From NCBI RefSeq assembly GCF_039645985.1, contig NZ_CP147919.1:2170001-2234000 (forward strand): DNA of 64,000 bases. The letters run 5' to 3'. Positions 22,192-42,493 of this stretch are shown here, piece after piece (position 1 is the first letter of the stretch; each line of letters starts with the position of its first letter). The notes under the pieces are model-generated. The model had not been told where the DNA came from and did not search any database. It saw only the letters and a list, made by a program, of their open reading frames with translations. This stretch comes from Sulfurimonas sp. HSL3-7 (GTDB lineage Bacteria > Campylobacterota > Campylobacteria > Campylobacterales > Sulfurimonadaceae). The position numbers and the translations under genes are program-made.

Positions 22192-23820
22192 ATGAATATT
22201 TTGGCTGTCATACCGGCACGCGGCGGTTCCAAAGGGATACCGAGAAAAAATTTACGGCTTTTGAATGGTAAGCCGCTTATCTACTACTCCATCAAAACGG
22301 CCCTGGCTTCACAGTATTCGCTCGATGTCTATGTCTCCAGCGAAGATGATGAAATACTCAACACTGCGATCGGTTTCGGTGCAAAGATCCACAAACGTGA
22401 CATCTCCATAGCCGATGATAAAAGCACGCTCGATCCGGTCATCCATGCCTGCTATTCGTATGCCCAGGCAGCAGAAAACAAGACCTATGATCTCATCATC
22501 ACGATGCAGCCGACATCACCGCTTCTGAAAACCGCTTCGCTTGACAGTGCCATCGAAAAGATGATTGCCGATCCTGCACTTGAGACAGTCATCGCCGCCA
22601 AAGACGACACCCACCTCTCCTGGCGTAAAGAGGGGGAGCGTTTTCTGCCGAACTATGAAAAACGGGTCAACAGACAATATTTAACACCCATGTTTACGGA
22701 GACCGGCGGTTTTTTCATTACCCGCAGAGAGATCATCACCCCGGCCAACCGCATCGGGACAAATGTCGAACTGTACCTGTTGGGTAACGGCGAAGAGATC
22801 GACATAGACACCTATGAAGACTGGAACCTCTGCGAATACCATCTCCGAAGAAAGCATATCCTGTTCCTCGTCACAGGCAACAGTGATGTCGGACTGGGCC
22901 ATGTCTACAACACCCTGCTGATCGCCAATGACATATTGAATCACCAGGTCACCTTTCTGGTAGACAGCGAAAGCCAGCTGGCTTTCGAGAAGATCGCATC
23001 AAAAAACTACCCGGTCGTGATGCAGCAGCACGCCGACATCCTCGACGACATCAGATCCATCAATCCGGACCTGATCATCAACGACAGGCTTGACACCGAT
23101 ACAGCCTACATTTCAGCACTCAAACATCTGGGTCTGCAAGTCGTTAATTTTGAGGATCTTGGAGACGGTGCCAAAGAAGCGGACCTTGTCATCAATGCCA
23201 TCTACCCGGAGAAGCAGATACTGCAAAATCACTTTTTCGGCCATGACTATTTTGTCCTGCGGGACGAGTTCATCTACTCCAGACAAAAAGAGACGATCGG
23301 TGATGTCAGGAACATCCTTGTCACCTTCGGCGGGGTTGACCCGAACAACTACACGAAGAAGGTCATCGAAACCATCTACGATTACTGCAATGCGAACCGC
23401 ATAACCATCACCGTTATCGCAGGGTTTGGCTACAAAGAGTATGATTCCTTACGTGCTTTTACAACGATCGACGTCAAAGAGAACGTCACCAATATCTCGC
23501 AATACATGCTTGAAGCCGACCTGATCTTCACGTCGGCAGGCAGAACGACCTATGAGATAGCGAGTATCGGTACTCCGGCCATTGTCATGGCGCAGAATGA
23601 ACGTGAGATGACCCACTTTTTTGCTTCGAGCGAATTCGGGTTCTTGAACTTGGGGTTGGGCTACAAACTCACCGACGAAGAGCTGTATAAAAATTTCATA
23701 GCATTGGTCAATGCAACGGAAAGCAGAAAATACATGAGTGATCTCATGAAAAAAACAGATCTGAAATCCGGACGAAAAACGGTCAACAGACTGATTCAAA
23801 ACCTTATGGAGAGCAAATGA
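22192..23820 (+). CDS. CMP-nonulosonate synthetase fused to PseG-like UDP-sugar hydrolase
   Basis: A 542-residue two-domain protein. Residues 1 to about 220 are an acylneuraminate cytidylyltransferase (AVIPARGGSKGIPRKNLRLL, MQPTSPLL, TETGGFFITRR), which activates a nonulosonic acid with CTP. Residues about 222-540 resemble PseG-type GT-B hydrolases (NSDVGLGHVYNTLLIA, NDRLDTDT, VTFGGVDPNN, TSAGRTTYEIASIGTP), which remove UDP from a 2,4-diacetamido sugar before condensation. Both acts belong to pseudaminic or legionaminic acid synthesis, around the NeuB-type step encoded next. The gene overlaps the synthase gene by 4 bases (ATGA). The other enzymes of such a pathway are not in this window. Confidence 0.85.
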   Translation: MNILAVIPARGGSKGIPRKNLRLLNGKPLIYYSIKTALASQYSLDVYVSSEDDEILNTAIGFGAKIHKRDISIADDKSTLDPVIHACYSYAQAAENKTYDLIITMQPTSPLLKTASLDSAIEKMIADPALETVIAAKDDTHLSWRKEGERFLPNYEKRVNRQYLTPMFTETGGFFITRREIITPANRIGTNVELYLLGNGEEIDIDTYEDWNLCEYHLRRKHILFLVTGNSDVGLGHVYNTLLIANDILNHQVTFLVDSESQLAFEKIASKNYPVVMQQHADILDDIRSINPDLIINDRLDTDTAYISALKHLGLQVVNFEDLGDGAKEADLVINAIYPEKQILQNHFFGHDYFVLRDEFIYSRQKETIGDVRNILVTFGGVDPNNYTKKVIETIYDYCNANRITITVIAGFGYKEYDSLRAFTTIDVKENVTNISQYMLEADLIFTSAGRTTYEIASIGTPAIVMAQNEREMTHFFASSEFGFLNLGLGYKLTDEELYKNFIALVNATESRKYMSDLMKKTDLKSGRKTVNRLIQNLMESK

Positions 23821-24875
23821 AATTAACTGAACTTTTTACAACTATCAATCCCTACGAACCGAAGCTGTACCGCCCCTATGTCATCGCAGAAATCGGCGTC
23901 AACTACGAGGGGAGTATGGAACTTGCCAAGCGCCTTGTCGACGAAGCCAAGGAGGGCGGTGCCGATGCGGTGAAGTTCCAGACCTATAAAGCCGATACGA
24001 TTGCATCAAAGGATTCGCCGGCCTACTGGGACACGACAAAAGAACCGACGAAATCGCAGCACGAACTCTTTCAAAAACACCAGGGTTTCTGGAAAGATGA
24101 GATGCAGGAGCTCAAAAACTACTGCGATCAGGTCGGCATCGAGTTTATGAGCACGCCGTTCGACGTCGAATCGGCAGACTTCCTGAACGAGATGATGGAC
24201 GTCTACAAAATATCCTCTTCCGACATCACCAACAAACCTTTTATCGAGTATATGTGCCGGTTCGACAAACCGATTATCCTCTCAACCGGTGCAAGCAGCC
24301 TGAGCGAGATCCAGGAGGCGGTGAGCTGGATCGAGAAACACGGCAATCCCCTGGCCCTGCTCCACTGCGTTCTGAACTACCCGACACCTGATAAAAATGC
24401 CAACCTGGGTATGATCCTTGGTCTTAAACAGGCTTTTCCGGACAAGATCATCGGCTACAGCGATCACACCCTGCCGCACGACATGAAAGTGTGCGAGATG
24501 GCAACAATGCTGGGAAGCGTCATCATCGAAAAACACTTCACACACGACAAAACACTGCCGGGCAACGACCACTACCACGCCATGGACAAAGAGGATCTGA
24601 AAGTGTTCAGAAACAACCTTGAGAGAACATTTGAGATCCTGGGAAGCTTTAAAGTCGAAGCGCTGGAAGATGAAGCCCCGGCAAGAGCCAATGCCAGAAG
24701 AAGCCTGGTCGCGCAAGGCGACATACCCAAAGGCGGGGTTATCACCGAAGAGATGCTGACATTCAAACGTCCTGCCCACGGTGTCAGCCCGAAGTTCATC
24801 GATGATGTCGTCGGCAAGGTCGCAACCGTCGATATCAAAGATGACGATGTCATCAAATGGGATATGTTCAGATGA
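23817..24875 (+). CDS. NeuB-family nonulosonic acid synthase
   Basis: A 352-residue protein with an N-terminal TIM-barrel synthase domain (YVIAEIGVNYEGSMELAK, GGADAVKFQTYKADT, FMSTPFD, ILSTGASSLSEI, YSDHTLPHDM, EKHFTHDKTLPGNDH) and a C-terminal SAF antifreeze-like domain (about 285-350) that closes over the substrate. It condenses phosphoenolpyruvate with an N-acyl hexosamine-type sugar to form a nine-carbon acid. The variant LHCVLNYPTPDKNANLG is nearer to legionaminate/PtmC-like enzymes than to sialic acid synthases, by my reading. It is coupled to both neighbours through 4-base ATGA overlaps. Confidence 0.88.
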   Translation: MKLTELFTTINPYEPKLYRPYVIAEIGVNYEGSMELAKRLVDEAKEGGADAVKFQTYKADTIASKDSPAYWDTTKEPTKSQHELFQKHQGFWKDEMQELKNYCDQVGIEFMSTPFDVESADFLNEMMDVYKISSSDITNKPFIEYMCRFDKPIILSTGASSLSEIQEAVSWIEKHGNPLALLHCVLNYPTPDKNANLGMILGLKQAFPDKIIGYSDHTLPHDMKVCEMATMLGSVIIEKHFTHDKTLPGNDHYHAMDKEDLKVFRNNLERTFEILGSFKVEALEDEAPARANARRSLVAQGDIPKGGVITEEMLTFKRPAHGVSPKFIDDVVGKVATVDIKDDDVIKWDMFR

Positions 24876-26005
24876 AAGATCGTTACGTCATTCTGACCGG
24901 CAGTAAGAACAACGCCGGGGATTTTCTGATAAAACACCGGGCCAAGAAGCTCTTTAAAGAGTTCCGGCCCGACCGTGAGATCGTCGATCTCGACCGATGG
25001 GTGCCGTTCGATGAAGAGACTCTTGCAATGGTCAACGACTCCAGAGCGTTGATTTTGACAGGCGGCCCTGCCCTGCATCCGAACATGTACCCCAACCTCT
25101 ACAAGATGAGCCGCCTCAGCGATATCAAGGTCCCGATCATCACGATGGGGATCGGATGGAGCTCAAAATCAGGGGAGTGGAGCGACACCTATACCTACGG
25201 CCTGAGCGATACCACCAAAGAGCTGTTTGAGAGAATTGAAAATTCCGGCTATCTCTCGAGTGTCCGGGACTACCACTCTTTGAATGTCCTGCATTCCGAA
25301 AACTATAAAAACTTTTTGATGACGGGTTGTCCGGCCTACTACAGTACGCAACATATCGGCAAAGATTTTGAACCCTATCCGATCAAAAAAGTCTCATTTT
25401 CAGTCGGCGTCGCTTTCAACCACAGCCGTAGTATGGAAAAACTCCTCAAAGAGTCTATCCTGCAATGCAAAGAGTATTTTGCTGATGAGACATTTGAAGT
25501 GATTTTCCACCACTCTCTGGATGCGACCAAAAGGAATCAGGGTGTCTCGGGAAGTCTTTTTGACTCACAGAAAGAGTTCGAGACTTGGCTGCTCGAACAG
25601 AAAATCACCTATAAAGATATCTCCGGCAGCGCCGAAAACCTGATAGAACACTACAGTACGGTAGACCTGCACATCGGTTACCGGGTGCATGCCCATATCT
25701 TTATGAACAGTATCTCCCGGTATTCCATCCTCCTCAATGAAGACGGTCGAGGAAAATCCATCAAAAATGTGATCGGCGGCATCACCATCGACGCCTTCGA
25801 CAACTATGAGGACAACCTCCTGGCTAAAAAGCTCAACCAGTTGATCAACTACGACAGGTACCGTGCGAACACCCACCTGCCGAAACAGCTCATCAGCGAA
25901 CTCGATTATGAGAAGCTCGCCGATTTCAACCGGTTCAAGCTCAGTAGAAAAAACATCGACAGTAATTTCAAAATCATGCAGCGCTTTTTAGCGCAGCTGC
26001 CATAG
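24872..26005 (+). CDS. polysaccharide pyruvyltransferase-like protein
   Basis: A 377-residue protein in the PS_pyruv_trans style: N-terminal VILTGSKNNAGDFLIKHRAKKLF, ILTGGPALHPNMYPNLYK, IITMGIGW, SSVRDYHSLNVL, and a C-terminal DLHIGYRVHAHIFMNSISR corresponding to the R-x-H pocket. Such enzymes usually move pyruvate from phosphoenolpyruvate to a sugar as a ketal, though several related proteins have other glycan roles. I start it at the ATG at 24872, which overlaps the synthase stop as ATGA; a start 15 bases upstream is also open. Its place in the nonulosonate set suggests it modifies the same glycan. Confidence 0.75.
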   Translation: MKDRYVILTGSKNNAGDFLIKHRAKKLFKEFRPDREIVDLDRWVPFDEETLAMVNDSRALILTGGPALHPNMYPNLYKMSRLSDIKVPIITMGIGWSSKSGEWSDTYTYGLSDTTKELFERIENSGYLSSVRDYHSLNVLHSENYKNFLMTGCPAYYSTQHIGKDFEPYPIKKVSFSVGVAFNHSRSMEKLLKESILQCKEYFADETFEVIFHHSLDATKRNQGVSGSLFDSQKEFETWLLEQKITYKDISGSAENLIEHYSTVDLHIGYRVHAHIFMNSISRYSILLNEDGRGKSIKNVIGGITIDAFDNYEDNLLAKKLNQLINYDRYRANTHLPKQLISELDYEKLADFNRFKLSRKNIDSNFKIMQRFLAQLP

Positions 26006-28610: not shown

Positions 28611-29732
28611 ATGGCAGAAAAGAAAGTAGCATTAATCACCGGGATCACAGGACAGGACGGGTCATATCTTGCAGAGTTTTTACTAAAAAAAGGCTATGAA
28701 GTACACGGTATTAAAAGAAGATCTTCGCTTTTCAACACAGATCGTATTGATCACCTTTATCATGATCCGCACGTAAAAGGAATGGATCTGACACTTCACT
28801 TTGGAGAGATGACAGACTCGATGAACCTAACGCGTATTATCCAAGAGGTTCAACCTGACGAAATCTACAATCTTGCAGCCATGAGTCACGTGGCGGTCTC
28901 ATTTGAGACACCTGAGTATGTGTCCAATGCCGACGGCACAGGGACATTGCGTATTCTTGAAGCAGTAAAACTTTTGGGGCTTACAAAAAAGACCAAGATC
29001 TATCAAGCATCTACATCAGAACTATACGGCAAAGTGCAAGAAGTGCCGCAAAGTGAAACGACTCCTTTTTATCCAAGAAGTCCCTATGCCGTTGCAAAGA
29101 TGTATGCCTACTGGATCACGGTTAACTACCGTGAAGCTTACGGTATGTTCGCCTGCAACGGTATCTTGTTTAACCACGAATCCCCTGTTCGTGGTGAGAC
29201 CTTTGTAACGCGTAAGATCACGCGTGCAGCATCTAAAATAGCGCTAGGTCTACAGGACAAACTTTATCTCGGGAACCTCAATGCTAAACGGGACTGGGGA
29301 CATGCAAAAGATTATGTAAGAATGATGTGGATGATCCTGCAAGCCGATGAGCCGGAAGACTGGGTTATCGCTACGGGGGTCACCACGACAGTGCGTGATT
29401 TTGTAAAAATGGCCTTTGCCTATGCCGGAATTGAATTAGAGTTTAAAGGTGAAGGTGTTGATGAGAAAGCCTATGTCGTCGCCTGCTCAAATCCTGATTA
29501 TCAGGTAGAGATCGGAAAGGAAGTGGTGGCAGTCGATCCACGTTATTTCCGCCCGACAGAGGTTGACTTACTTATCGGTGACCCTACAAAAGCGGAGCAG
29601 AAACTGGGTTGGACACGTGAGCATAAACTAGAAGATCTTGTTAATGATATGATGGAGTCAGATCTTAAACTTATGACTAAAGATCAGTACCTTCAAGACG
29701 GTGGATACCGTATTCACAACTATTTCGAGTAG
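28611..29732 (+). CDS. gmd: GDP-mannose 4,6-dehydratase
   Basis: A 373-residue extended short-chain dehydrogenase that turns GDP-mannose into GDP-4-keto-6-deoxymannose. The NADP site [11 protein letters not shown] (residues 10-20), the RRSS region, the catalytic Tyr159 and Lys163 of YAVAK, and the [21 protein letters not shown] stretch are family-typical. It lies 8 bases upstream of fcl, so the pair makes GDP-L-fucose. The mannose phosphate could come from the phosphohexomutase at 9-10.3 kb; a GDP-mannose pyrophosphorylase gene is not in the window. Confidence 0.97.
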
Positions 29733-29740
29733 TCTATAAT

Positions 29741-30844
29741 ATGGATAAAACAAGCAAGATTTATGTCGCGGGTCACAGAGGTCTGGTCGGTTCTGCAATT
29801 GTGCAGAACCTAACATCTAAAGGGTATACAAACCTGGTCAATAGAACACATTCCGAGCTGGATTTGACAGACCAAACAGCAGTGGCAGATTTTTTCCGGT
29901 CTGAAAAACCGGAGTATGTGATCCTTGCTGCAGCAAAAGTGGGCGGTATTGTGGCGAACAATACCTACCGGGCGGAATTCATCTACGAAAACCTCCAGAT
30001 ACAGAACAATGTCATCCATCAAGCCTATTTAAACGGTGTCAAAAAACTTCTGTTTCTAGGCAGCACCTGCATCTATCCAAAAGATGCTCCGCAGCCTATG
30101 CCGGAAGATTGTCTACTGACGTCACCGCTTGAGTACACCAATGAACCTTATGCTATAGCGAAAATAGCAGGCATCAAGATGTGTGAATCTTATAACCTTC
30201 AATACGGTACTAACTTTATCTCAGTTATGCCGACCAACCTTTATGGACCAAATGACAATTTTGACTTAGAGAAGTCACATGTCCTTCCTGCACTCATCAG
30301 AAAGATCCATTGTGCCAAACTGCTCAATGAAAAAAAATATGATGACGTAGTAAAAGACTTAGATCTCAATAACATTGATGAAGCAAAAGAGTATCTATCT
30401 AAATTCGGTGTAGATGAAACCCGTGTAGAAATTTGGGGGACAGGTAAACCATGTCGAGAATTTTTATACTCTGAAGATATGGCTGATGCCTGTGTATTTT
30501 TACTTGAGAACAGAGATTTCAAAGACACATATACAGATGTATCTGGCAGTAATGAGACTTGCACACCCAATAGTGTTACAACTACAGAGATAAGAAATAC
30601 TCATATCAACATTGGAACAGGTAAAGATATCTCCATCAAAGAATTAGCCGAGATGATCAAAGAGATCATTGGCTTTAAAGGTGAACTCTATTTCAATACT
30701 GATAAACCTGATGGAACGATGAAAAAATTGACTGATGTTTCTAAGCTTCATGCGCTTGGCTGGAAACATAAAGTTGAGTTGAACGATGGAATCAAAACTA
30801 TGTATGAATGGTATTTAAATATCAACTTTAACAACTATAAATAG
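29741..30844 (+). CDS. fcl: GDP-L-fucose synthase
   Basis: A 367-residue NADPH-dependent epimerase-reductase that completes GDP-L-fucose. Motifs: [10 protein letters not shown] (residues 11-20), FLGSTCIYP with Ser108, catalytic Tyr137 and Lys141 in [11 protein letters not shown], and the [20 protein letters not shown]-terminal motif. It is about 45 residues longer than the E. coli enzyme because of inserts around residues 185-225 and 260-290. The second insert ([18 protein letters not shown]) has AT-richer sequence than the rest. This longer form is common in environmental bacteria. Confidence 0.95.
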
Positions 30845-30851
30845 GTAACAA

Positions 30852-32081
30852 TTGAAAAAAAACTTATTTTTATCATTTATTGATCAAGGAATAGTCAGTT
30901 TATCTAATTTTTTACTGATAATTTTTCTAGCAAGAATCTTGGATAAAGCTGAATTCGGTTTTATCTCTTTTCTTCTCTTTATCAGTGTACTTATCAATAA
31001 CACGCATATCTCTCTAATAACACAGCCTCATAATGTCATCGCCGCAAAACTAGGACAAAGATATTATGAAAAATATACGAGTGGCTTATTGGGGTTAAAT
31101 ATACTTTTTATTATTTTACTTATACTAATGTCTCTATTAATATATTTTTTGCATTATCTTCAATTAATTAATCTGTACGATGAAACTGCATTTATTATTT
31201 TTTCTCTTTTTTATCTGACTATCAAACAGTTGCAAGATTTTTTTAGAAGAATTTTGTTTACTTCTGGGCATATTCAGGAATTACTGATTAGTGATATTAT
31301 CGCTTATGGCGGTGTAATATTATTCATATGGCTAGCATATTATTTTAACATCACTTTACTACACACAATTATTATTTTGATTTCCATACCTTATATTTTG
31401 TCAACTATCTATTTACTGCAAAAAAATAGAATCGAATACAAATTGAATCTAAAAATTATGGTTATGGCATATAAAAAAAGCTATAACTTCGCACGTTGGG
31501 CTTTTTTATCGACATTCACATCATGGGTTGGAACGAGAATCTTTCCAATTACATTGGGGATACTTGTCAACATGGAAACTGTTGCAGTCTATGCAGTTTT
31601 AATGAATATCATAAACACGCTTAACCCGTTTTTTTATACGTTAACGAATTTTCTGACTACCGTATTTGCCAAAATGCAACAGAAATCTAATGTGCTAAAA
31701 CAGACATTTAATGTTTTTTTAGCTTCATTACCGATTGTAATTATTGCGATCACAATTTTATTTATTTATGCAGAAGATATATTGTTTTTCCTCTATGGTC
31801 CAAAGTATACTGAATATGCTGAATTACTAAAATACATATCTTCTTCAATATTATTGATTGGAATTGCAAATATTTTACAATTGTATCTCCGCGCATTACA
31901 ACAGGTGAAATATATTTTTCAAGCTTTTTTGTTTTCTTCGTTTTTCACCTTAACTATAGGCACTTATCTGATACACAGCTATCAAATTGAAGGGGCTGTC
32001 TTGGCTTTTGTTTTATCATGGGCTGTTTCAGATATTTTCTTGGGCTTTAGTGTTTTAAGAATGCACAAGGTGAAGATGTGA
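30852..32081 (+). CDS. polysaccharide flippase (Wzx-like)
   Basis: A 409-residue protein with about twelve hydrophobic helices and the N-terminal pattern SFIDQGIVSLSNFLLIIFLARILDKAEFGFI, typical of MOP-superfamily O-unit flippases. It would move the undecaprenyl-linked O-unit across the inner membrane. The start is TTG at 30852, preceded by AGGTAACAA, 7 bases after the fcl stop. Its DNA is markedly AT-rich compared with fcl's first half and with the core genes, as usual for variable O-antigen genes. The polymerase-like gene overlaps its end by 4 bases (GTGA). Confidence 0.85.
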   Translation: MKKNLFLSFIDQGIVSLSNFLLIIFLARILDKAEFGFISFLLFISVLINNTHISLITQPHNVIAAKLGQRYYEKYTSGLLGLNILFIILLILMSLLIYFLHYLQLINLYDETAFIIFSLFYLTIKQLQDFFRRILFTSGHIQELLISDIIAYGGVILFIWLAYYFNITLLHTIIILISIPYILSTIYLLQKNRIEYKLNLKIMVMAYKKSYNFARWAFLSTFTSWVGTRIFPITLGILVNMETVAVYAVLMNIINTLNPFFYTLTNFLTTVFAKMQQKSNVLKQTFNVFLASLPIVIIAITILFIYAEDILFFLYGPKYTEYAELLKYISSSILLIGIANILQLYLRALQQVKYIFQAFLFSSFFTLTIGTYLIHSYQIEGAVLAFVLSWAVSDIFLGFSVLRMHKVKM

Positions 32082-33346
32082 ATAAAATTGTTATGATTTT
32101 TTTAACCATACTGTTTTTTAAACCATTTGGTCTTGACCAGGTCGATAAATTTGGACTAACTCTTATGCCTATGTTTGCTGCCACTAAAATATTTAGAATC
32201 TTGTGGATTTTTTTGGTAGCTGCTTTTTTAATATATCTTATATATAAATTATATATGTATTGGAGAAGAAACCCGATTCAAATTGAAATTCCTATTTTCA
32301 GCTTGTTTTTCAGCATTTTATATTCGTATGTTTTAATTACTTCCTTTATGTTAAGTCAGTATGCAGATGTATTGGGATTTTACCGTTTACTTGAGCTTCT
32401 TATTGTAATGACCAGTATTCTTGTACTCTTATCAGCAACATCATTTAAAAGCCTTAATCTTCTTGATCTGATACAAAAAGCCCTTCTCATAAACTTTTAT
32501 TTGATTATTCTTATTCTCCTTTTTTGGTTGGTTAAAGATCATTCGATGATATTCCAATTGGAAACGCAAGGAAGGGTGCGATTGGGAGGATCGGTTTACA
32601 GCCCGAATGAATTGGGTATTATAGGATCTCTAAGTATGTGGTCAGCATACTACTTATTATTTAAAAATCATATTAGCAAGAAATTTTTTGTCTTTACCCT
32701 TTTGATAGCTCTAATTATAGTTGTCTTAACAAATAGCCGGACAAGTATGGTTATCGCTTTCGGCTCTATTTTATTCATGCTCCATAAACAGAATTTGATA
32801 AATAAACTCGCCATTATCGGTATGACTTTTATTGGAATGATATTTCTTTTTTCCACTTTCAATATTGACAGATTAGGTTATGGGAATGACCCTTTAGAGG
32901 AGTTAAAAACACTCAATAATAGAACGTATATTTATGAAGTTGCTTTTGACGGCATCATTAGAAACCCATGGTTTGGAGTAGGTTACGTAGAGGGAACGAA
33001 AGAGTTTTTAAAAGAGAATTTCACACAAGACTTTTGGTTGCCACCGCACACCCACAATGGGTATATTGAAATTGCCCTTTCATTAGGAATACCTTTTTTT
33101 GTATTAGTAATGCTAATCAGTACAAGGCTGTTTTTTCTATCTTTTAGAAACATCATTTTCAATACAAATAAGATAACTGTTGCATCTTCGATGCAACTTA
33201 TTATTATAATGGTTACCGCTATGACAACAGTAGACATCGGAAATGCTGTTAATCCTTTATTTGTTTTATTTTTGTTTTATCTATTGACAAATGGTCAGTT
33301 ATTACAAGATCCTCATAGAAATCTGCATCAAGCTGGAAAAAGATAA
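32078..33346 (+). CDS. O-antigen polymerase/ligase-family membrane protein (probably Wzy)
   Basis: A 422-residue protein with about eleven membrane helices and the Wzy_C features GGSVYSPNELGIIGSLSM, TNSRTSMVIAFGSIL and, before the penultimate helices, a large loop with NPWFGVGYVEGT and PPHTHNGYIEIALSLG containing the conserved H-x-HN. These enzymes join O-units or transfer them to the lipid A core. Because another member lies in the core section (46.4 kb), this one is more likely the polymerase. The start GTG overlaps the flippase stop by 4 bases. The DNA is AT-rich. Confidence 0.82.
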   Translation: MNKIVMIFLTILFFKPFGLDQVDKFGLTLMPMFAATKIFRILWIFLVAAFLIYLIYKLYMYWRRNPIQIEIPIFSLFFSILYSYVLITSFMLSQYADVLGFYRLLELLIVMTSILVLLSATSFKSLNLLDLIQKALLINFYLIILILLFWLVKDHSMIFQLETQGRVRLGGSVYSPNELGIIGSLSMWSAYYLLFKNHISKKFFVFTLLIALIIVVLTNSRTSMVIAFGSILFMLHKQNLINKLAIIGMTFIGMIFLFSTFNIDRLGYGNDPLEELKTLNNRTYIYEVAFDGIIRNPWFGVGYVEGTKEFLKENFTQDFWLPPHTHNGYIEIALSLGIPFFVLVMLISTRLFFLSFRNIIFNTNKITVASSMQLIIIMVTAMTTVDIGNAVNPLFVLFLFYLLTNGQLLQDPHRNLHQAGKR

Positions 33347-34768
33347 ATGTTATTTAACAGCTATGAATTTATATTTCTATTTTTACCTTTTTCTTTTTTC
33401 ATATATTTCTCTCTTTTGCAGAAGCGATTAATTACCGGCGCAAAAGGTTTTTTAGTTTTTGCCTCTCTGTTTTTTTATTCGTGGTGGAATATTTCATATC
33501 TGCCGATTATTTTATCTTCGATGTTATTTAACTATGTGATTGGTAACTCGTTAAATGAGAATTTTAAAAAAGTTCAAGTTCATAAAAAGACTTTATTAGC
33601 TTTTGGGATTACTTCCAATATCGCCTTGCTTGGCTATTTTAAATATTCTGATTTTTTTATTGAAAACGTCAATCTTGCATTTAACGAATCCGTTCCTTTG
33701 CTACATTTAGCTTTGCCTTTAGCAATCTCATTTTTCACCTTTCAACAGATCGCTTATTTGGTTGATTCGTATCGTGGTGAAACGGCCGAATATGACTTTT
33801 TAAACTATGCCCTCTTTGTCACTTTTTTCCCTCAGCTTATTGCAGGACCAATTGTACATCATGCGGAGATGATGCCTCAGTTCGCTTCAAAATGGAATCT
33901 GGTTAAAAATTATAAAAATATTGCTGTGGGACTTTTTATTTTTTCTATCGGATTGTTTAAAAAAGTGGTTATTGCCGATAGCTTCGCTCAGTGGGCAACA
34001 CACGGCTTTGACGTGGCGACAACATTGAGTTTTTTTGAAGCATGGGCGACATCACTATCGTACACTTTTCAGCTCTATTTTGATTTCAGCGGCTACACCG
34101 ACATGGCGATCGGTGCGGCACTGCTGTTCAATATCACGTTGCCGATTAACTTCAACAGTCCCTATAAGGCACGCGATATCCAGGATTTCTGGAGACGCTG
34201 GCATATTACGCTCTCTCGCTTTTTACGGGACTATATCTATATCCCACTGGGCGGAAACCGCAAAGGAAATTTCCGGACCTATAACAATTTGCTTGCCACA
34301 TTTATTCTCGGCGGCATATGGCACGGAGCGGGATGGACGTTCATATTCTGGGGCTTTCTTCATGGTCTCGCTTTGGTCGTACACCGTTTTTGGAAACAGC
34401 TTGGCTTTACCATGAACAGGTACCTGGCATGGTTTGTTACGTTTAACTTTGTCAACATCGCCTGGGTCTTTTTCCGCGCCAGGGAATGGGAGGATGCGAT
34501 TAAAGTACTCTCCGGGATGATAGATTTAAACATGCGTATGTTTACATATAAAATAGATGTTTTTGAAACCTCTTTTATCCTGGGCGGGGTGGTGCTGGTG
34601 CTCACTTTCCTGAACTCCATGCAAATGATTCGTTTTGTCCCTTGTAGCGGAAAAATTTGTTTTAAACCTACTCGTTTATTCGCATTATTTGCGTCGATGC
34701 TTTTTTTGATAAGTCTATTCTACATATTGACAACAAAAAACAGTGAATTTTTATATTTTAATTTTTAA
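33347..34768 (+). CDS. MBOAT-family O-acyltransferase (AlgI-like)
   Basis: A 473-residue membrane-bound O-acyltransferase. The core motifs YFDFSGYTDMAIGAALLF, FWRRWHITLSRFLRDYIYIPLGGNRKG and ILGGIWHGAGWTFIFWGFLHG, with the catalytic His of GIWHG, are AlgI/DltB-like. It would carry acyl groups through the inner membrane to a periplasmic partner that acylates a polysaccharide. It directly follows the polymerase gene. GC content visibly changes inside the gene: the first 640 bases are AT-rich, the middle (about 33990-34640) resembles the core genome, and the end is AT-rich again. The SGNH-like partner gene follows 20 bases later. Confidence 0.92.
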   Translation: MLFNSYEFIFLFLPFSFFIYFSLLQKRLITGAKGFLVFASLFFYSWWNISYLPIILSSMLFNYVIGNSLNENFKKVQVHKKTLLAFGITSNIALLGYFKYSDFFIENVNLAFNESVPLLHLALPLAISFFTFQQIAYLVDSYRGETAEYDFLNYALFVTFFPQLIAGPIVHHAEMMPQFASKWNLVKNYKNIAVGLFIFSIGLFKKVVIADSFAQWATHGFDVATTLSFFEAWATSLSYTFQLYFDFSGYTDMAIGAALLFNITLPINFNSPYKARDIQDFWRRWHITLSRFLRDYIYIPLGGNRKGNFRTYNNLLATFILGGIWHGAGWTFIFWGFLHGLALVVHRFWKQLGFTMNRYLAWFVTFNFVNIAWVFFRAREWEDAIKVLSGMIDLNMRMFTYKIDVFETSFILGGVVLVLTFLNSMQMIRFVPCSGKICFKPTRLFALFASMLFLISLFYILTTKNSEFLYFNF

Positions 34769-34788
34769 TAAAAGCAGGGTGTAGTCAA

Positions 34789-35964
34789 ATGCATAAATAT
34801 AAAGAATTTATTTTAATATTTTTCCTTTTTTTGTTCCTAGGCGCATTATTGCTCCCTGTTACAAACCTGTGGATAGATAGGTATAGGATTTTCAACGCTT
34901 TTAATCATCATTACGACACCTACTATTGGAGAAAAGACAACAAGTGGGAGTTTAACCATGCTGACCGCATTATCCCTATGGCTTTTCTTTTAAGCAACAA
35001 GCATGAATTTGACAGTTTTATATTTGGGAACTCGAAAATCGGCAATATGGATGTCCGTTCATTAGGGGCTTCGTGGTACAAACTGAATTATAACTCCGGG
35101 AATATGGTGGAACATCTTCATAATGCCAAATTGCTGTTGGATAATATTCATGTTAAAAATATTATTTTAACGATTGATCTGGAGTATTTTTATGACCTCA
35201 GCATAAACGTTAAATATAAAAAAGATGTTTATCCCAAAGATATGGGAGAATGGGCAGTATTGCTGAAAAAATATCTTTTTAAAAGAGAGGATGAAAAAGA
35301 TTTTAACTTTTTATTTGAGAAAGATTATGAATTGATAAAAAAAGAAGAATTTTATATCAGAACGAATGCAAACCACTTGGTTCCATATGACAAAAATGCT
35401 GAACACTTATCATATGTCAATAATTTAACAGGCTTAAGATATAAAGATTCAACCTTTGATCAAAAGAAGATCGATCAAGTCATCGGTATGATCAGAGAGC
35501 TAAAGACGCTTACTGAAATCAAGGGGGCCCATTTCAGTATGCTTTTTGTTCCATTTCATTATAAAAACATCTTCCAGGCCGATCCTGATAAGATAAACTA
35601 TATTAAGCGAGAGCTTGTTTCGATATCGGATTTCTACGATTTCTCATTGCCGCATAATTACATAATCAACAATGCATTCTGGAGAGAGACTTTTCACTAC
35701 ACAAAAGCTGTTAATGACGAAATCATTAAGAAAATTAAAAATGAAAAACAACTTTGTGAACCGTTTGGTGTATTGCTTACAAAAAATAATATTGATACTC
35801 AATTAGAAACCGGATACAATACCTCCCGAGGTTTAATCGATTATTTACTTATAAGTGATTCACATTTTTTTCCGCATAAAAATTTTAGAAATGGCGTTGA
35901 AAATTCTGATATTTTTTCTACAAATTTACATCAAATCACCCAAAACTGTTTGGATTACTACTAA
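34789..35964 (+). CDS. membrane-anchored SGNH/AlgJ-like partner of the MBOAT protein
   Basis: A 391-residue protein with one N-terminal membrane helix (about 7-28) and a periplasmic domain. The segment DSFIFGNSKIGNMDVRSLG matches the position of the nucleophile block in AlgJ/DltD/SGNH-like proteins, where GxSR or GNSK is found, and IILTIDLEYFYD supplies the next strand. Near the C-terminus LISDSHFF may be the DxxH block. MBOAT proteins usually act with such a partner to acylate extracellular glycans. Identification is by context plus these motifs; the sequence is AT-rich and divergent. Confidence 0.6.
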   Translation: MHKYKEFILIFFLFLFLGALLLPVTNLWIDRYRIFNAFNHHYDTYYWRKDNKWEFNHADRIIPMAFLLSNKHEFDSFIFGNSKIGNMDVRSLGASWYKLNYNSGNMVEHLHNAKLLLDNIHVKNIILTIDLEYFYDLSINVKYKKDVYPKDMGEWAVLLKKYLFKREDEKDFNFLFEKDYELIKKEEFYIRTNANHLVPYDKNAEHLSYVNNLTGLRYKDSTFDQKKIDQVIGMIRELKTLTEIKGAHFSMLFVPFHYKNIFQADPDKINYIKRELVSISDFYDFSLPHNYIINNAFWRETFHYTKAVNDEIIKKIKNEKQLCEPFGVLLTKNNIDTQLETGYNTSRGLIDYLLISDSHFFPHKNFRNGVENSDIFSTNLHQITQNCLDYY

Positions 35965-35973
35965 AGGTCAAAA

Positions 35974-38244
35974 ATGAAAATAATTAATTATCTATATGAG
36001 TGGTTTTTTAAAAAATCACGGTTACAAAACAAACGTGATTTTCCGTATGTCATTAATTTTCCGATCACAGATAATTGTGATTCAAAGTGCGTCATGTGTA
36101 ATGTATGGAGAGATAAGGTTGAAAATGAACTCTCAGCAGATGAGATAGGTGAAATATTCCGCGATAAACTGTATAGAGAAGTAAAACACATAGGCATTTC
36201 CGGAGGGGAGCCGACATTACGAAAAGATCTGCCCGAGTGCATAGCACAGATACTGCAATCTCTTCCAAAGCTGGAATCGTTATCTATCACAAGCCATGGA
36301 TATCACACAGAACGATGGGAGGGAGTGTTACCAGCGATTTTGGATGCCGTCAATGAGCATCAAATCGCTTTCTCGGTCAATCTCTCTTTCGATGGCATTG
36401 GGAAAACACATGATGTTATCAGAGGAGTCAACGGAGCGTTTGAAAGAGTCAACGCGACGATGCAGTTTTTGAAGCAGCACGGTGTTAAAGTCCAGATGCA
36501 GTGCACCGTCTCCAAAGACAATGTCTATCATGTCGGTAAAGTTCTCAATTATGCCATTGAAAACAGAGTCGAAGTCATTTTTCGCAGGGCAACGACGATT
36601 GCACGCTTATATAATGACTCTGTGATTGATGACGTTGTACTTAGCCGGCATGAAAATTCTTATCTGGCGGATTTTTTCCTGGAACCGAGGTTACATGACT
36701 ATACCGTTTCACCTTCTCGCAGAATGTATTATAAGCGCATGGCAAAACTGCTCAGTGAAAATACCCATACGCGAACGTTTCCATGCTATTTCCAAAACGA
36801 GGGTCTGTTTTTAACATCAAAAGGAGAGCTCTACAACTGTTCTGTCTCGGCAAACAAACTGGGTGAGGTAAGAGCCGATAAAGACAGTTCGGCTGCCTAT
36901 TGGTCCCAACATGCGGATAACGTGGTCAATAATCTGAAAAACAGCACATGCCGGACATGCCTTCATGACCAAAACGGGGCATGGACACCTGCCGAACTGT
37001 TTGAAGAGATGTACTCCCGATCGAAATTCTATGCCCCCGTGGGTAAAATAATGAAGGTCTTCAAGGGAATAAAATCTTTACTCTCCATAGCGTATTACAG
37101 TTATGCTCCAGTTGTCAGACCAACCGCTTATGAAAACAACAGTGTCCTGTTGATAGGGGCTTACGGCGGAGAACATGTAGGTGATGCTGCTATTCTGGGG
37201 GGTGTTATATTACGGCTGAAAAAGAAGCTGAATATACAAAAAGTGTATATATCAAGTTTCAGGCCTGACAGAACGCAACGATGGGTGGACGAATTGGACC
37301 TGGATGTTGAAATACAAGTTGTCGGGGATACAGACATTGATGCCTCTTTGAAGTCTTGTCAATACCTTGCCTATGCCGGAGGCCCTTTGATGGACATGCC
37401 TTTGCACCTGGCAAATCACCTGAAAACGATGGTGCAAGCCAAAGCAATGGGGAAAACCGTACTGATCGAAGGTGTAGGCATTGGACCGCTGGGCAGCAAG
37501 CTCTCATTTTATCTGGTCAACAAAATGCTGAAAACCGCCGATCATGTCAAGGTAAGAACCGTAGCTTCAAGAGATTACGTGCTGTCACAGGAACTTGACG
37601 TAAAATTGGATAAAGATCCTGCATTTGACTATCTCGAGAGTAGAAAATCGATCGATAAAACTTTGCTGCCTCCTTCCGTCAACAAACTATTGTCAGACTG
37701 TCTGGAAACCAAAGATGAAAAAATATTTATAGGTATCAATCTAAGACCTTTATGGGCGAAGTACAGTTCGGATGAAACCGACCTGGACAAGCTGGAAGAG
37801 ACTTTGTACAGTAATATTGCGAACGCTTTTGCCGATATCAAAAAGCGTTTGCAGAAGGATGTTGTCTTTGTGTTTTTTCCTATGAACCCGGACCAGTATG
37901 GTTTTTCCGATCTGTTATCAGCTTATAAACTGGAAACGTATTTTAATGATGGGATCGATTTCAGGATATGGGAATATGAACCGGGCATTGATGATATGCT
38001 GCGTTTTTTGAATTTGATGGATGTGGTGATCTCCATGCGTTTTCATGGATGTATCTTTTCCCTGACTCAAAACCCTTCAAACACGATAGGGCTGGATTAT
38101 CAAATAGGTAAAAAAGGTAAAGTTTCAGAACTAATGGATGACTTTCACTTGTCTGATAAAGTGTCAGATTTAAAAGGTCTGAAGTCTGAATGGCTGACGC
38201 AACAAGTAATGGAGTCTATCAATGCGAATACTGCTCGTCCATAA
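35974..38244 (+). CDS. radical SAM domain fused to polysaccharide pyruvyltransferase domain
   Basis: A 756-residue fusion. Residues about 20-330 form a radical SAM domain: cluster motif CDSKCVMC, then ISGGEPTLRKDL, NLSFDGIGKTHDVIRG and, at the end, SPASM-like cysteines (FPCYFQNEGLFLTSKGELYNC and STCRTCLHD). Residues about 385-750 form a pyruvyltransferase-type domain (LLIGAYGGEHVGDAAILGG, YAGGPLMDMP, GVGIGPLGSK, VRTVASRDYVL, INLRPLW, ISMRFHGCIFSL, GLDYQIGKKGKVSEL). The linked activities suggest a radical-based sugar change followed by, or coupled with, ketal addition. Neither activity is proven. It overlaps the following GT4 gene by 23 bases. Confidence 0.85.
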   Translation: MKIINYLYEWFFKKSRLQNKRDFPYVINFPITDNCDSKCVMCNVWRDKVENELSADEIGEIFRDKLYREVKHIGISGGEPTLRKDLPECIAQILQSLPKLESLSITSHGYHTERWEGVLPAILDAVNEHQIAFSVNLSFDGIGKTHDVIRGVNGAFERVNATMQFLKQHGVKVQMQCTVSKDNVYHVGKVLNYAIENRVEVIFRRATTIARLYNDSVIDDVVLSRHENSYLADFFLEPRLHDYTVSPSRRMYYKRMAKLLSENTHTRTFPCYFQNEGLFLTSKGELYNCSVSANKLGEVRADKDSSAAYWSQHADNVVNNLKNSTCRTCLHDQNGAWTPAELFEEMYSRSKFYAPVGKIMKVFKGIKSLLSIAYYSYAPVVRPTAYENNSVLLIGAYGGEHVGDAAILGGVILRLKKKLNIQKVYISSFRPDRTQRWVDELDLDVEIQVVGDTDIDASLKSCQYLAYAGGPLMDMPLHLANHLKTMVQAKAMGKTVLIEGVGIGPLGSKLSFYLVNKMLKTADHVKVRTVASRDYVLSQELDVKLDKDPAFDYLESRKSIDKTLLPPSVNKLLSDCLETKDEKIFIGINLRPLWAKYSSDETDLDKLEETLYSNIANAFADIKKRLQKDVVFVFFPMNPDQYGFSDLLSAYKLETYFNDGIDFRIWEYEPGIDDMLRFLNLMDVVISMRFHGCIFSLTQNPSNTIGLDYQIGKKGKVSELMDDFHLSDKVSDLKGLKSEWLTQQVMESINANTARP

Positions 38245-39400
38245 TCAGTACCAGCACCGCGGTGGTGAAGATACTGTTTTGGAATCCGAATTAAAACTTT
38301 TGAAAAAATATGGAGAAACAGTTGAAACATTGATGTTCAATAATGATCTGATAAAATCACCTTTGGAAAAAATCAAGTATGGTTTTTATTCATTTTACAA
38401 CCCTGAATCTTCCCGTTTATTGGAGCGTAAAATTAAGGAATTCTGTCCTGATGTCATACATGTACATAATTTTTTCCCTATTGCATCCCCTGCCCTATTT
38501 TATGCCGCGAATAAACAGAAAACTCCTATTGTCATGACACTTCACAATTATCGCTTGATCTGTCCAAATGCAATGTTTTTTCGGGATGATCAAGTTTGTG
38601 AAGCCTGTATTTCCAAATCTTTTGCACTGGATGGTGTTTTACATGGATGTTATCGCAATTCCAGGGTTCAAACACTTTTTCTGGCAAGTATGACATGGTT
38701 CCATAAGGCAGCGGGGACCTGGTATGATCGTGTTGACAAATATATTCTGTTAACGCAGTTTGCAAAAAATAAATTTTTGGACTCTTCATTAAAATTGGCT
38801 GACTCCAAGATGGCAGTAAAATCGAACTTTGTAGAAGATCGCGGGTTTGATTTGAATAAAGATGACTATTGTCTTTTTGTTGGACGTTTGTCTAAAGAGA
38901 AAGGCATTGATATATTGCTGGAAGCTTTTAAACATTCAGAAAGAAAATTACTGATTATAGGGACCGGCCCTCTTTCACAAAAAGTGAAAGAACATTCAGA
39001 GAAATATCCTAATATAGAATATGCTGGATTCCAGTCAATTGATTTTATCATTACCAAACTGAAAAAAGCCAAGGCACTGATCTTTACGTCCATCTGGTAC
39101 GAAGGAATGCCAATGACAATTTTGGAATCATTGTCAGTGGGAACACCCGTTATTTGTGGTGACTTGGGAGGGCCTGCTGAGATGATTGAAAATCACAAGT
39201 CAGGTTTAATTTATAAAGCGGGTGACAGTGGCGATTTACAAAAAAAAGTTGATTGGTTGTATGATCATCTGACAGAATATAAAGAGTTCTGTCGAAATGC
39301 ACGCAATGAATTTGAAAGTAAGTACTCTGAAGAGAAAAATTATGATCAGTTGATGCATATTTATAAGGAAGTTATTGGTGAAAAAAAGAAAAGTAATTAA
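38222..39400 (+). CDS. GT4-family glycosyltransferase
   Basis: A 392-residue GT-B glycosyltransferase. The N-terminal LLVHNQYQHRGGEDTVLESE, the acceptor-side HVHNFFPIASPALFYAA, the donor-side FVGRLSKEKGIDILLEAF and SIWYEGMPMTILESLSVGTPVICGD with the EGMPM-x3-E site are GT4-typical. It adds one nucleotide-activated sugar to the growing lipid-linked unit at the cytoplasmic face. Its start lies within the end of the fusion gene, and the GT26 gene begins within its own end, so translation is coupled through three genes. Confidence 0.92.
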   Translation: MRILLVHNQYQHRGGEDTVLESELKLLKKYGETVETLMFNNDLIKSPLEKIKYGFYSFYNPESSRLLERKIKEFCPDVIHVHNFFPIASPALFYAANKQKTPIVMTLHNYRLICPNAMFFRDDQVCEACISKSFALDGVLHGCYRNSRVQTLFLASMTWFHKAAGTWYDRVDKYILLTQFAKNKFLDSSLKLADSKMAVKSNFVEDRGFDLNKDDYCLFVGRLSKEKGIDILLEAFKHSERKLLIIGTGPLSQKVKEHSEKYPNIEYAGFQSIDFIITKLKKAKALIFTSIWYEGMPMTILESLSVGTPVICGDLGGPAEMIENHKSGLIYKAGDSGDLQKKVDWLYDHLTEYKEFCRNARNEFESKYSEEKNYDQLMHIYKEVIGEKKKSN

Positions 39401-40136
39401 GTCTTTAATTAGCACTGGAAAATATGAAACATTTATTCATAATATTTTAGGCTTGGTTCAAAATCATAGTTCTAGCTATATATGTGTATCAAATGTTCAC
39501 ATGACCATAGAAGCATATTTAGATACCAATTTTTCTGCAGTTGTTAATGGTGCTGACATGGCGACACCTGATGGTATGCCTCTTGCTAAAGCGATGAAAT
39601 TCCTTTATGGTATTGATCAAGATAGAGTTGCTGGAATGGATTTAATGCCAGATCTTATGAAAATTTCTGAAGAAAAAGGTTTATCGATCTTTATATATGG
39701 GTCTACTGATAATGTACTAGAAGAAATCGTATCGAAGGCAAAACAAGAATTTCCAAATTTAGAACTTAACGTGTATTCACCTCCATTTAGAACACTGTCA
39801 GAGGAAGAAAAAAATAATATTGTTAGCATGATCAATGATAAAAATCCTGATTTGGTTTTCGTAGCACTGGGTTGTCCTAAACAAGAAAAATGGATGGCTG
39901 AACATAAAAATAAAATAAACAGTTGCATGATAGGCCTTGGCGGAGCATTAGAGGTATACGCTGGCGTAAAAGATAGGGCACCCCAATGGATGCAGGATTA
40001 CGCATTGGAATGGATGTATAGATTTATTCAAGACCCGAAAAGATTATGGAAAAGATATCTAGTTACTAATACATTGTTTATTATTTTATTATTAATTCAA
40101 ATTGTCAAAGTTAGGATTTTCAAGCGTCTTGATTAA
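39375..40136 (+). CDS. WecG/TagA/CpsF-family glycosyltransferase (GT26)
   Basis: A 253-residue protein with the GT26 motifs CVSNVHMTIEAYLD, NGADMATPDGMPLAKAMK, RVAGMDLMPDLM, FIYGSTDNVLEE, ALGCPKQEKWM, GLGGALEVYAGVKDRAPQWM, and the membrane-associating C-terminal tail YRFIQDPKRLWKRYLVTNT. GT26 enzymes add the second sugar, such as ManNAc(A), to undecaprenyl-linked intermediates, which suits a Wzx/Wzy cluster. The start is TTG at 39375 or GTG at 39378, with AAGGAAG upstream favouring the GTG. The DNA is AT-rich, unlike the initiating transferase gene downstream. Confidence 0.92.
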   Translation: MVKKRKVIKSLISTGKYETFIHNILGLVQNHSSSYICVSNVHMTIEAYLDTNFSAVVNGADMATPDGMPLAKAMKFLYGIDQDRVAGMDLMPDLMKISEEKGLSIFIYGSTDNVLEEIVSKAKQEFPNLELNVYSPPFRTLSEEEKNNIVSMINDKNPDLVFVALGCPKQEKWMAEHKNKINSCMIGLGGALEVYAGVKDRAPQWMQDYALEWMYRFIQDPKRLWKRYLVTNTLFIILLLIQIVKVRIFKRLD

Positions 40137-40192
40137 CACTTTCTAGAGGCTGGAGAAGCTTGCGAAGGATAATTATCAAAGATCTGTTTAGT

Positions 40193-40198
40193 TATAAT
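40193..40198 (+). promoter_or_regulatory. possible -10 box before the initiating transferase gene
   Basis: TATAAT, 23 bases upstream of the ATG at 40221 in an 84-base gap, with CCGGAGTAAT as the ribosome site. It suggests the initiating transferase and Wzz genes can be transcribed independently of the variable genes upstream. Confidence 0.4.
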
Positions 40199-40220
40199 CA
40201 CACAAAAAAACCGGAGTAAT

Positions 40221-41552
40221 ATGAATACAAACGTGAGGGATATTTTCTCGAAAGCCATTCTGATTTTTCTTGATGCAGCGACCATCTTTATATCTATCTG
40301 CCTGTCATACCTGTTAAGAGAAGCTTTAAATGAATATTTTTTTGTAACACATTCACAACCGCTGGCAATCTACACAGAGTTCTCATTAATCTACCTGGCC
40401 ACTCTCGCTATGCTGGCCTACGAAGGTGCGTATACCCGGCGCTATGACTTCTGGCACGAGAGCAGACAGGTCCTTAAAGCACTCAGTTTCGCTTTTCTAA
40501 TCATAATGGCCTACCTGGCGATTACCAAAAGTGTCGAGGAATACTCTCGTGCCGTTATCATTTTTGCTTTTCTCCTAATGGCCTTGCTGATCCCTCTTTC
40601 CAAGAATATCAGTAAAAAACTTCTTTTCCGCGCAGGGCTTTGGCGAAGAGAAGCCAAAGTGCACGGAAACGATCCGTTCATCAAAGAAGAGATCTTCCGC
40701 AACCACTATCTGGGCTATGTTGAAGCGAAAAGAAAAGAGCCGAAGACAGTCTTCGTTAACTCAAAAGGGGCCGATGCGAAAGAGCTCCGCCGCATTATCG
40801 ACCAGGAGATCCGCAGCAAACACGAAGTTGTTTTCATCCCGCTGATGGATGAGTACGATCTGACCCAGTCGCACATCTACGAGCTTGCCAACACACGGAC
40901 AAACCTTGTTGTCTTTCAGAATCGTCTGAAGAGCCGATACCGCATCTGGCTAAAGCAGCTTTCAGACATTGTCCTGTTCTTGATCGCTTTTCCGCTGTTA
41001 CTACCGATTATGGCTGTGATTGCGTACAAGATCAAAAAAGAGGAGCCTAACGGCTCCATTCTCTTTAAACAGGAACGCTTGGGCAAAGATAATAAGACTT
41101 TTGTCTGTTATAAATTTAGAACAATGGCTGAAAATGGAGATGAACTACTTGAAAGCTACCTGAAAGCGCATCCGGAAGAGATCGAAGCCTATGCCAAATA
41201 CCATAAGTACGAGAACGACCCGCGTGTCACAAAGATCGGTCACTTTTTACGAAAAACATCCCTGGATGAACTGCCGCAGATCATTAACGTGTTCAAAGGT
41301 GAAATGAGTTTTGTAGGACCGCGCCCCTATATGCTCAACGAAAAAGAGAAAATAGGAGATAGTCTGGAAACTGTCTTGGCGGTAAAGCCTGGCATCACCG
41401 GTCTTTGGCAGGTCAGCGGGCGCAGCGATGTGGATTTTGTATCACGCGTCGAACTTGATGTCTGGTACATAAGGAACTGGAACCTATGGATGGATAATGT
41501 AATCTTGTTCAAGACCGTAAAAACAGTTTTGATTCGAGAGGGTGCAAGTTGA
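40221..41552 (+). CDS. undecaprenyl-phosphate sugar phosphotransferase (WbaP/WcaJ type)
   Basis: A 443-residue polyisoprenyl-phosphate hexose-1-phosphate transferase. Four N-terminal membrane helices (to about residue 125), a soluble linker and the catalytic C-terminal third with SILFKQERLGKDNKTFVCYKFRTM, RKTSLDELPQIINVFKGEMSFVGPRP and KPGITGLWQVSGRSDVDF are typical. It transfers sugar phosphate from a UDP-sugar to undecaprenyl phosphate and so starts the O-unit. The first 170 bases are AT-rich, and then composition returns to the genome norm, so the recombination border of the variable cluster may lie here. Wzz follows after 89 bases. Confidence 0.94.
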   Translation: MNTNVRDIFSKAILIFLDAATIFISICLSYLLREALNEYFFVTHSQPLAIYTEFSLIYLATLAMLAYEGAYTRRYDFWHESRQVLKALSFAFLIIMAYLAITKSVEEYSRAVIIFAFLLMALLIPLSKNISKKLLFRAGLWRREAKVHGNDPFIKEEIFRNHYLGYVEAKRKEPKTVFVNSKGADAKELRRIIDQEIRSKHEVVFIPLMDEYDLTQSHIYELANTRTNLVVFQNRLKSRYRIWLKQLSDIVLFLIAFPLLLPIMAVIAYKIKKEEPNGSILFKQERLGKDNKTFVCYKFRTMAENGDELLESYLKAHPEEIEAYAKYHKYENDPRVTKIGHFLRKTSLDELPQIINVFKGEMSFVGPRPYMLNEKEKIGDSLETVLAVKPGITGLWQVSGRSDVDFVSRVELDVWYIRNWNLWMDNVILFKTVKTVLIREGAS

Positions 41553-41641
41553 TCGTATTATTGACTTCTATGTAGGCAAGAACAAGACTCTAACTTTTAA
41601 CATGGCTTCATGTACAATCTCACTTTTATTAAGGAAATGCA

Positions 41642-42493
41642 TTGCAAAACGATATAACTTATACACCAATGGAGAAGATCGATCTCCGAGAGCTTGTTTT
41701 AATTTTGAAACGGCGTCAAATTCTTGTCATGCTGATCACACTGATCGTGACAATTCTAGCCATTGTCTATGTACTCATCGCAAAACCGGTCTATGAGATA
41801 AGAAGTATTGTCGAAGTATCTTTAATCGACAACAAACCGGTACAAAGTATCAATGATACGAAGCAGAAACTTGATTTTACTTATGAGGTAGATATCAAGG
41901 GTAAAGAGGTAGAAATGCCTTTAGTCAGTGAGATCAGCATTCCAAAGAAAACGACCAGCCTTTTGGTGATCAAGACACAGGGGTATAGTAACGAAGACGC
42001 TGCAGGTTTAATGACCAAGATCGTCGATGAGATCACGACCCAGGAAAATGAAAAAATAACGATCTACAAAGACACCGTCAAAGAGAAGTTGACACAGGTT
42101 GAAGAAGACATCTCCAGAAACGAAAAAACAGCAGTGGAACTTAAGGGCAAAATTGCTGACTATGAAAGTAAATTTTTAAACATTTCAAAAAAGGACGCGG
42201 CACTTGCGGGGATCTATGCGATAGAGATCGGTAAAAAACAGAGTGAGTTATACAGTATGAACAACCGTATCAGCGCCTTGCGTTCGCAAAAAAATGATCT
42301 TGCTCTCTCTATCTCAGATCTTCGTATCCAACCGACCAGGGTGATAGGCAATTTCGAAGTGCTGGACAAACCAATCAAACCAAAGAAAGCCTTGATCATT
42401 GTCGTGGCTTTTGTTACCGGCTTGATGCTCGCAGTTTTCCTAGCCTTCTTTTTAGAATTTGTACAAACGCCTAAAGAAGAAGAAAACGAATAA
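41642..42493 (+). CDS. Wzz-family chain-length determinant
   Basis: A 283-residue protein with two flanking membrane helices (about 29-48 and 253-273), the N-terminal Wzz motif EKIDLRELVLILKRRQI, a periplasmic coiled-coil-rich part (about 130-235), and the Pro-rich second-helix motif VLDKPIKPKKALI. It sets the modal length of the Wzy-made polymer. The frame starts at TTG 41642, with AAGGAAATGCA upstream; the internal ATG at 41669 is an alternative. No kinase domain is present, in keeping with the O-antigen rather than the capsule type. Confidence 0.88.
   Translation: MQNDITYTPMEKIDLRELVLILKRRQILVMLITLIVTILAIVYVLIAKPVYEIRSIVEVSLIDNKPVQSINDTKQKLDFTYEVDIKGKEVEMPLVSEISIPKKTTSLLVIKTQGYSNEDAAGLMTKIVDEITTQENEKITIYKDTVKEKLTQVEEDISRNEKTAVELKGKIADYESKFLNISKKDAALAGIYAIEIGKKQSELYSMNNRISALRSQKNDLALSISDLRIQPTRVIGNFEVLDKPIKPKKALIIVVAFVTGLMLAVFLAFFLEFVQTPKEEENE

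Follow-up and report, generated by a model that had tools for sequence, protein, structure and literature searches.

A single gene in the analysed window (the whole stretch of 64,000 nucleotides from Sulfurimonas sp. HSL3-7) encodes a radical SAM enzyme with a Twitch-type auxiliary region joined to a polysaccharide pyruvyl transferase (hereafter PyvT; 35974..38244, + strand, 756 amino acids in one open reading frame). The fusion is a genuine and recurrent architecture made from two known families. We favour, with a probability of about 0.55, its reading as a bifunctional glycan-tailoring enzyme of an O-antigen/exopolysaccharide cluster, which would combine a radical step with phosphoenolpyruvate (PEP)-dependent pyruvylation. 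Our literature search (mostly without subscription papers, hence weak evidence of absence) returned no paper that joins radical SAM and pyruvyl transferase, and as far as that literature goes the architecture is undescribed.

The frame runs through 756 codons without interruption and is preceded by a ribosome-binding-like AAAGG six bases upstream of the ATG at 35974, while the reverse strand of the same interval is full of stops; within the 2.87-Mb genome it is the only full-length copy. Both halves exceed their Pfam gathering cut-offs within this one frame (all coordinates below are on the + strand unless stated otherwise), which bears out the fusion claimed in the preliminary description and places neither half in an unrelated family. 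By Pfam score and CxxxCxxC motif, the N-terminal half is assigned to the radical SAM superfamily: its core spans residues 24-205 (36043..36588), with PF04055 (Radical_SAM) matched at residues 30-177 (1.9e-14, 54.6 bits against a cut-off of 29.5). The radical SAM cluster motif is complete, as previously noted, with C35-x3-C39-x2-C42 (36076..36099) as the predicted ligands of the SAM-cleaving [4Fe-4S] cluster, and both this motif and a GGEP motif (residues 77-80, 36202..36213) are invariant in all 15 members of the clade recovered in our searches.

Equally invariant (15/15) are the residues of the auxiliary region (residues 267-331, 36772..36966), namely C271-x12-G284-x4-C289 and C326-x2-C329-x-H331. 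A SPASM domain is defined by a seven-cysteine motif (CX9-15GX4C-gap-CX2CX5CX3C-gap-C), whereas a Twitch domain has a truncated version of it and a single auxiliary cluster (PMC6231123). The SPASM-like cysteines reported earlier are thus real as regards the first four of the seven (C271, C289, C326, C329) and amount to a Twitch pattern with one predicted cluster; a full SPASM domain was rejected (4/7 cysteines). PF13186 (SPASM) was reached by four of the eight clade members tested, the window protein not being among them, and the latter came near the cut-off of no NCBIfam radical SAM equivalog (the curated cut-off of NF033640 was not reached). The CxxCxH ending separates the clade in the alignment, being present in 15/15 members versus 0/31 other radical SAM relatives.

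The paired cysteine motifs (CX9-15GX4C and CX2C) are shared with BtrN, the Twitch-type radical SAM dehydrogenase of butirosin, with one fully cysteine-ligated auxiliary cluster expected, although the protein described here differs in its invariant CxxCxH and its PyvT half. BtrN-type homology was not recovered, as BtrN was not among the PDB sequence matches of the radical SAM half at E values up to 0.01. The AlphaFold model (eight sequences; mean pLDDT 81, pTM 0.75, weak linker) was used for the fold of each half and not for their relative placement. Foldseek matched the N-terminal half to SkfB, anSME, BlsE and MoaA, the nearest solved radical SAM structures, which have the core and partly the Twitch/SPASM region in common with it, but act on peptide, GTP, sulfatase or nucleoside substrates and have no PyvT half. 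For the C-terminal half the matches were GT-B proteins (the best being chiefly UDP-GlcNAc 2-epimerases), and Pvg1p was absent among the top 50 matches listed.

The pyruvyl transferase half (residues 389-756, 37138..38241) carries PF04230 (PS_pyruv_trans) at residues 402-700 (1.5e-15, 58.3 bits against a cut-off of 25.3) and remains below the curated cut-off of the CsaB equivalog TIGR03609 (3.6e-21, 75.8 versus 213.1 bits). Its family and five PEP-site or essential residues are those of the ketal-pyruvyltransferases CsaB (Paenibacillus alvei) and Pvg1p (PDB 5ax7), both of which are stand-alone proteins, whereas here PyvT is fused or adjacent to a radical SAM enzyme. By spacing, R528 (37555..37557) and R591 (37744..37746) correspond to CsaB R148 and R207, as they lie 163 and 100 residues upstream of H691 (160 and 101 for the CsaB counterparts). 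R689-F690-H691 (38038..38046) and K716 (38119..38121) were mapped through a weak profile alignment to Pvg1p 5ax7 (E 1.5) onto CsaB R306, H308 and K328 (R337, H339 and K361 in Pvg1p). In CsaB, changes of R148 and R207, as well as H308A and H308R, abolish activity, and K328R lowers turnover (PMC10435577). None of the 15 members deviates at R528, R591, R689, H691 or K716, in keeping with the pyruvyltransferase-type pattern seen earlier. From the family and these conserved residues we infer that the C-terminal half is likely to perform PEP-dependent pyruvyl transfer.

Fused and split forms of the pair were found in 11 genomes (including that of the window) and in four genomes, respectively. When GTDB genomes were scanned with the fusion protein, single-frame relatives came from Parahaliea mediterranea (44% identity over the best segment) and from one MAG each of Geobacteraceae (40%) and Gastranaerophilales. 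In an uncultured Polaribacter and in a MAG of Spirochaetia the two halves were split; another split form comes from the window's own order (G278). Profile searches extended the fused set by G501 (same class as the Geobacteraceae MAG), G854 and G751 (Parahaliea's order) and G1121, G1108, G1210 and G987 (Polaribacter's family, and termed Flavobacteriaceae on the ground of this membership), and the split set by G1450 (same phylum as the Spirochaetia MAG). In each of the four split genomes the radical SAM gene is directly followed by the PyvT gene with an overlap of 1-4 bases, which agrees with the earlier expectation of split homologues lying side by side, and the gene boundary coincides with a poorly conserved linker in the fusion (residues 332-388, 36967..37137; low pLDDT, variable in the alignment). 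Such split neighbours could suggest that a sequencing or assembly error had joined two adjacent genes (the preliminary description had considered a lost stop codon), but ten other fused frames in independent assemblies rule this out and the split forms make up one separate clade, so that we give the idea practically no credence.

All radical SAM sequences that scored at clade level had a PyvT partner (15/15, counted over the clade members found in the sampled taxonomic groups). When the PyvT half in turn served as query against 111 genomes of Polaribacter's family, it gave two clade-level matches, both with a radical SAM partner and both in genomes already known as carriers; a PyvT of this clade without the partner was found in none of these 111 Flavobacteriaceae genomes. 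Identity distances of the two halves were strongly correlated (0.956, matched in 0 of 10,000 permutations; 0.945 without near copies) and, since shared whole-genome ancestry feeds this correlation, it shows joint inheritance rather than contact. The trees of the two halves have the same main clades: in both of them the window fusion groups with those of Parahaliea, Geobacteraceae and G1121, and all four split pairs cluster together with support, therefore a single fission (or a single reverse change) suffices.

Carriers of the pair are rare (no more than about 1-2% of the genomes in any sampled group) and patchily distributed across unrelated groups, as would be expected of genes moving with surface-polysaccharide clusters. 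Paired members were present in 2/299 genomes of the window's order and 1/298 of its phylum (overlapping samples that each count the window's genome, the phylum being searched at a stricter limit), 2/244 in the class of G433, 3/265 in Parahaliea's order, 5/301 in Polaribacter's family, 1/194 in the class of the Gastranaerophilales MAG and 2/247 in the phylum of the Spirochaetia MAG, every count including the genome used as search centre. Plasmid and viral collections contained distant radical SAM matches only. The next closest radical SAM relatives found were from Desulfuromonadia (L020-L047, E about 1e-31 to 1e-57), which are related but have neither a nearby PyvT nor the CxxCxH ending; in the class of G433, the other radical SAM relatives had no PyvT within about 1.5 kb on either side. 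Sequences L022-L047 belong to a common Desulfuromonadia radical SAM family that ends in CxxCTEPGLER or a close variant, and some of the relatives in this set adjoin further radical SAM genes.

The location within a surface-polysaccharide cluster (an O-antigen cluster in the preliminary description) is supported. The + strand run (28611-42493) comprises Gmd and Fcl-like genes of the GDP-L-fucose route (28611..30844; TIGR01472 2.4e-178, and NF047922 1.1e-138, below cut-off), flippase-like and Wzy/ligase-like membrane proteins (30852..33346; PF13440 1.2e-5 and PF04932 1.4e-20), an MBOAT O-acyltransferase (33347..34768; PF03062 6.4e-41), a protein at 34789-35964, the fusion, a GT4 glycosyltransferase that overlaps it by 23 bases (38222..39400; PF00534 1.4e-32), a WecG/TagA/CpsF glycosyltransferase (39375..40136; PF03808 1.8e-59), and a WbaP-type initiating transferase with a Wzz-like chain-length protein (40221..42493; TIGR03022 2.4e-122 and PF02706 1.2e-12). 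Of the neighbours named earlier, the MBOAT and the two glycosyltransferases were thus recovered by family, while the protein at 34789-35964 matches no Pfam or NCBIfam model, so that its SGNH-type label, which rests on a reading of FGNSKIGN, is tentative. The Fcl-like protein (29741-30844, 367 amino acids) aligns with the GDP-fucose synthase model over two separate stretches (461.8 bits versus a cut-off of 500), as if carrying an insertion. The gene of a second, stand-alone PF04230 protein (24857-26005; 3.7e-18) directly follows those of a NeuB-like protein and a cytidylyltransferase/PseG-like fusion (22192-23820), and the region thus holds two unrelated-looking pyruvyltransferase-family genes (24857-26005 and 35974-38244).

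Judged from translations, most clusters have a GT4-like gene next to the pair or close by, with one type in the window's subfamily (VHNQY..GGEDTV) and another in the other subfamily (NTSD..GGAARAA); that of the Geobacteraceae cluster is some kilobases downstream. The GT4 gene beside the G854 fusion appears as two open reading frames (240 and 175 amino acids; L066 6542-7815, - strand) and is perhaps broken. WecG/TagA relatives occur in 4/4 clusters of the window's subfamily and were not found near other members, and G1108, G1210 and G987 have, on reading, apparent ABC-transporter genes beside the fusion in place of a flippase. Two neighbours of the Gastranaerophilales fusion (L006 93-2856, - strand) read like relatives of nitrogenase components (HGPTNCAW), which is odd for a glycan enzyme. 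GDP-fucose as the substrate common to both halves is suggestive at best, because Gmd with Fcl lies within only 6/15 clusters and gmd, although present anywhere in the genome of 14/15 carriers, is also found in 6/14 control genomes. ManNAc (the product of WecG/TagA, as for CsaB) is a candidate acceptor; controls and carriers have UDP-GlcNAc 2-epimerase about equally often (10/14 controls and 10/15 carriers over cut-off). Since the clusters share no sugar-synthesis gene, they do not name the acceptor.

We reason that the C-terminal half would use phosphoenolpyruvate to attach pyruvate as a ketal to a sugar, probably on the undecaprenyl-linked repeat unit at the cytoplasmic side. CsaB is a parallel, as its proposed substrate is a lipid-linked disaccharide that is modified in the cytoplasm prior to export (PMC10435577); the flippase and polymerase genes of the cluster suggest the same lipid-linked, pre-export stage. 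The N-terminal half would cleave SAM at its [4Fe-4S] cluster, and the resulting 5'-deoxyadenosyl radical may abstract a carbon-bound hydrogen of the same sugar or of a neighbouring residue, after which the single Twitch cluster would accept or donate an electron to give an oxidised (BtrN-like) or an epimerised (NeoN-like) sugar. BtrN is a Twitch enzyme that oxidises a sugar-like alcohol (PMC9012708), and NeoN, which converts neomycin C to neomycin B, is a radical SAM epimerase acting on a sugar unit of a glycoside, likened here by reaction and not by sequence; NeoN belongs to an antibiotic pathway and has no PyvT (PMC10991966). Because SPASM/Twitch sequence is an unreliable predictor of chemistry (PMC6231123), either of these particular radical reactions, drawn by analogy, is held to be doubtful. 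The fusion would hold both steps on one substrate, and fusion, adjacency and co-evolution make a shared glycan substrate somewhat probable; two steps on one substrate is indeed the natural reading of these data, whereas the order given previously (a modified sugar "then pyruvylated") has no support in them.

Several observations count against the bifunctional reading: the nearest solved relatives of the radical SAM half include peptide and cofactor enzymes (SkfB, MoaA and anSME), with BtrN absent from its sequence matches; the PyvT half scores below the CsaB cut-off and finds its best folds among UDP-GlcNAc 2-epimerases rather than Pvg1p; and the clusters have no sugar-synthesis gene in common. 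The same low identity to CsaB, sub-threshold equivalog score and GT-B epimerase folds would suit a relative of the PF04230 enzymes that has lost pyruvyl transfer, and instead binds the glycan of the radical SAM enzyme or transfers something else, but five CsaB PEP-site or essential residues kept invariant across 15 divergent members render this improbable. That the halves modify different substrates of one pathway, and are fused for joint production only, also appears improbable: co-transcription is common among polysaccharide genes and the model, with its weak linker, does not prove that the active sites meet, yet the exclusive pairing (15/15) persists in distant groups while the flanking genes vary, and the halves co-evolve.

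A further possibility, which we consider unlikely, is that the radical SAM half modifies the pyruvyl group, or the carbon bearing it, after transfer (for example by turning a ketal or enolpyruvyl ether into a 1-carboxyethyl (lactyl) ether or a carbon-linked acid). It would explain the strict pairing and co-evolution better than two independent decorations, and, with a Twitch cluster that could pass electrons, it fits the same data as the bifunctional reading, but the sequence has no feature that indicates it in particular. We know of no characterised radical SAM enzyme with chemistry on a pyruvyl group or on the carbon that bears it. On this reading, and with similarly low probability, the radical and PEP enzymes may jointly make an undescribed glycan substituent (an acid-bearing sugar) through a radical step on the pyruvyl group or the carbon to which it is attached; the CxxCxH clade would be its marker and would have spread to unrelated bacteria through exchanged polysaccharide clusters.

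To our knowledge, radical SAM enzymes in the assembly of bacterial surface polysaccharides are little characterised. Here, a radical SAM clade is tied to a single partner whose type of reaction is known, and it occurs fused as well as split, which makes the question of the substrate directly testable on one protein. The CxxCxH ending offers a ready sequence marker of this clade, which could allow a surface modification to be predicted from the genome.
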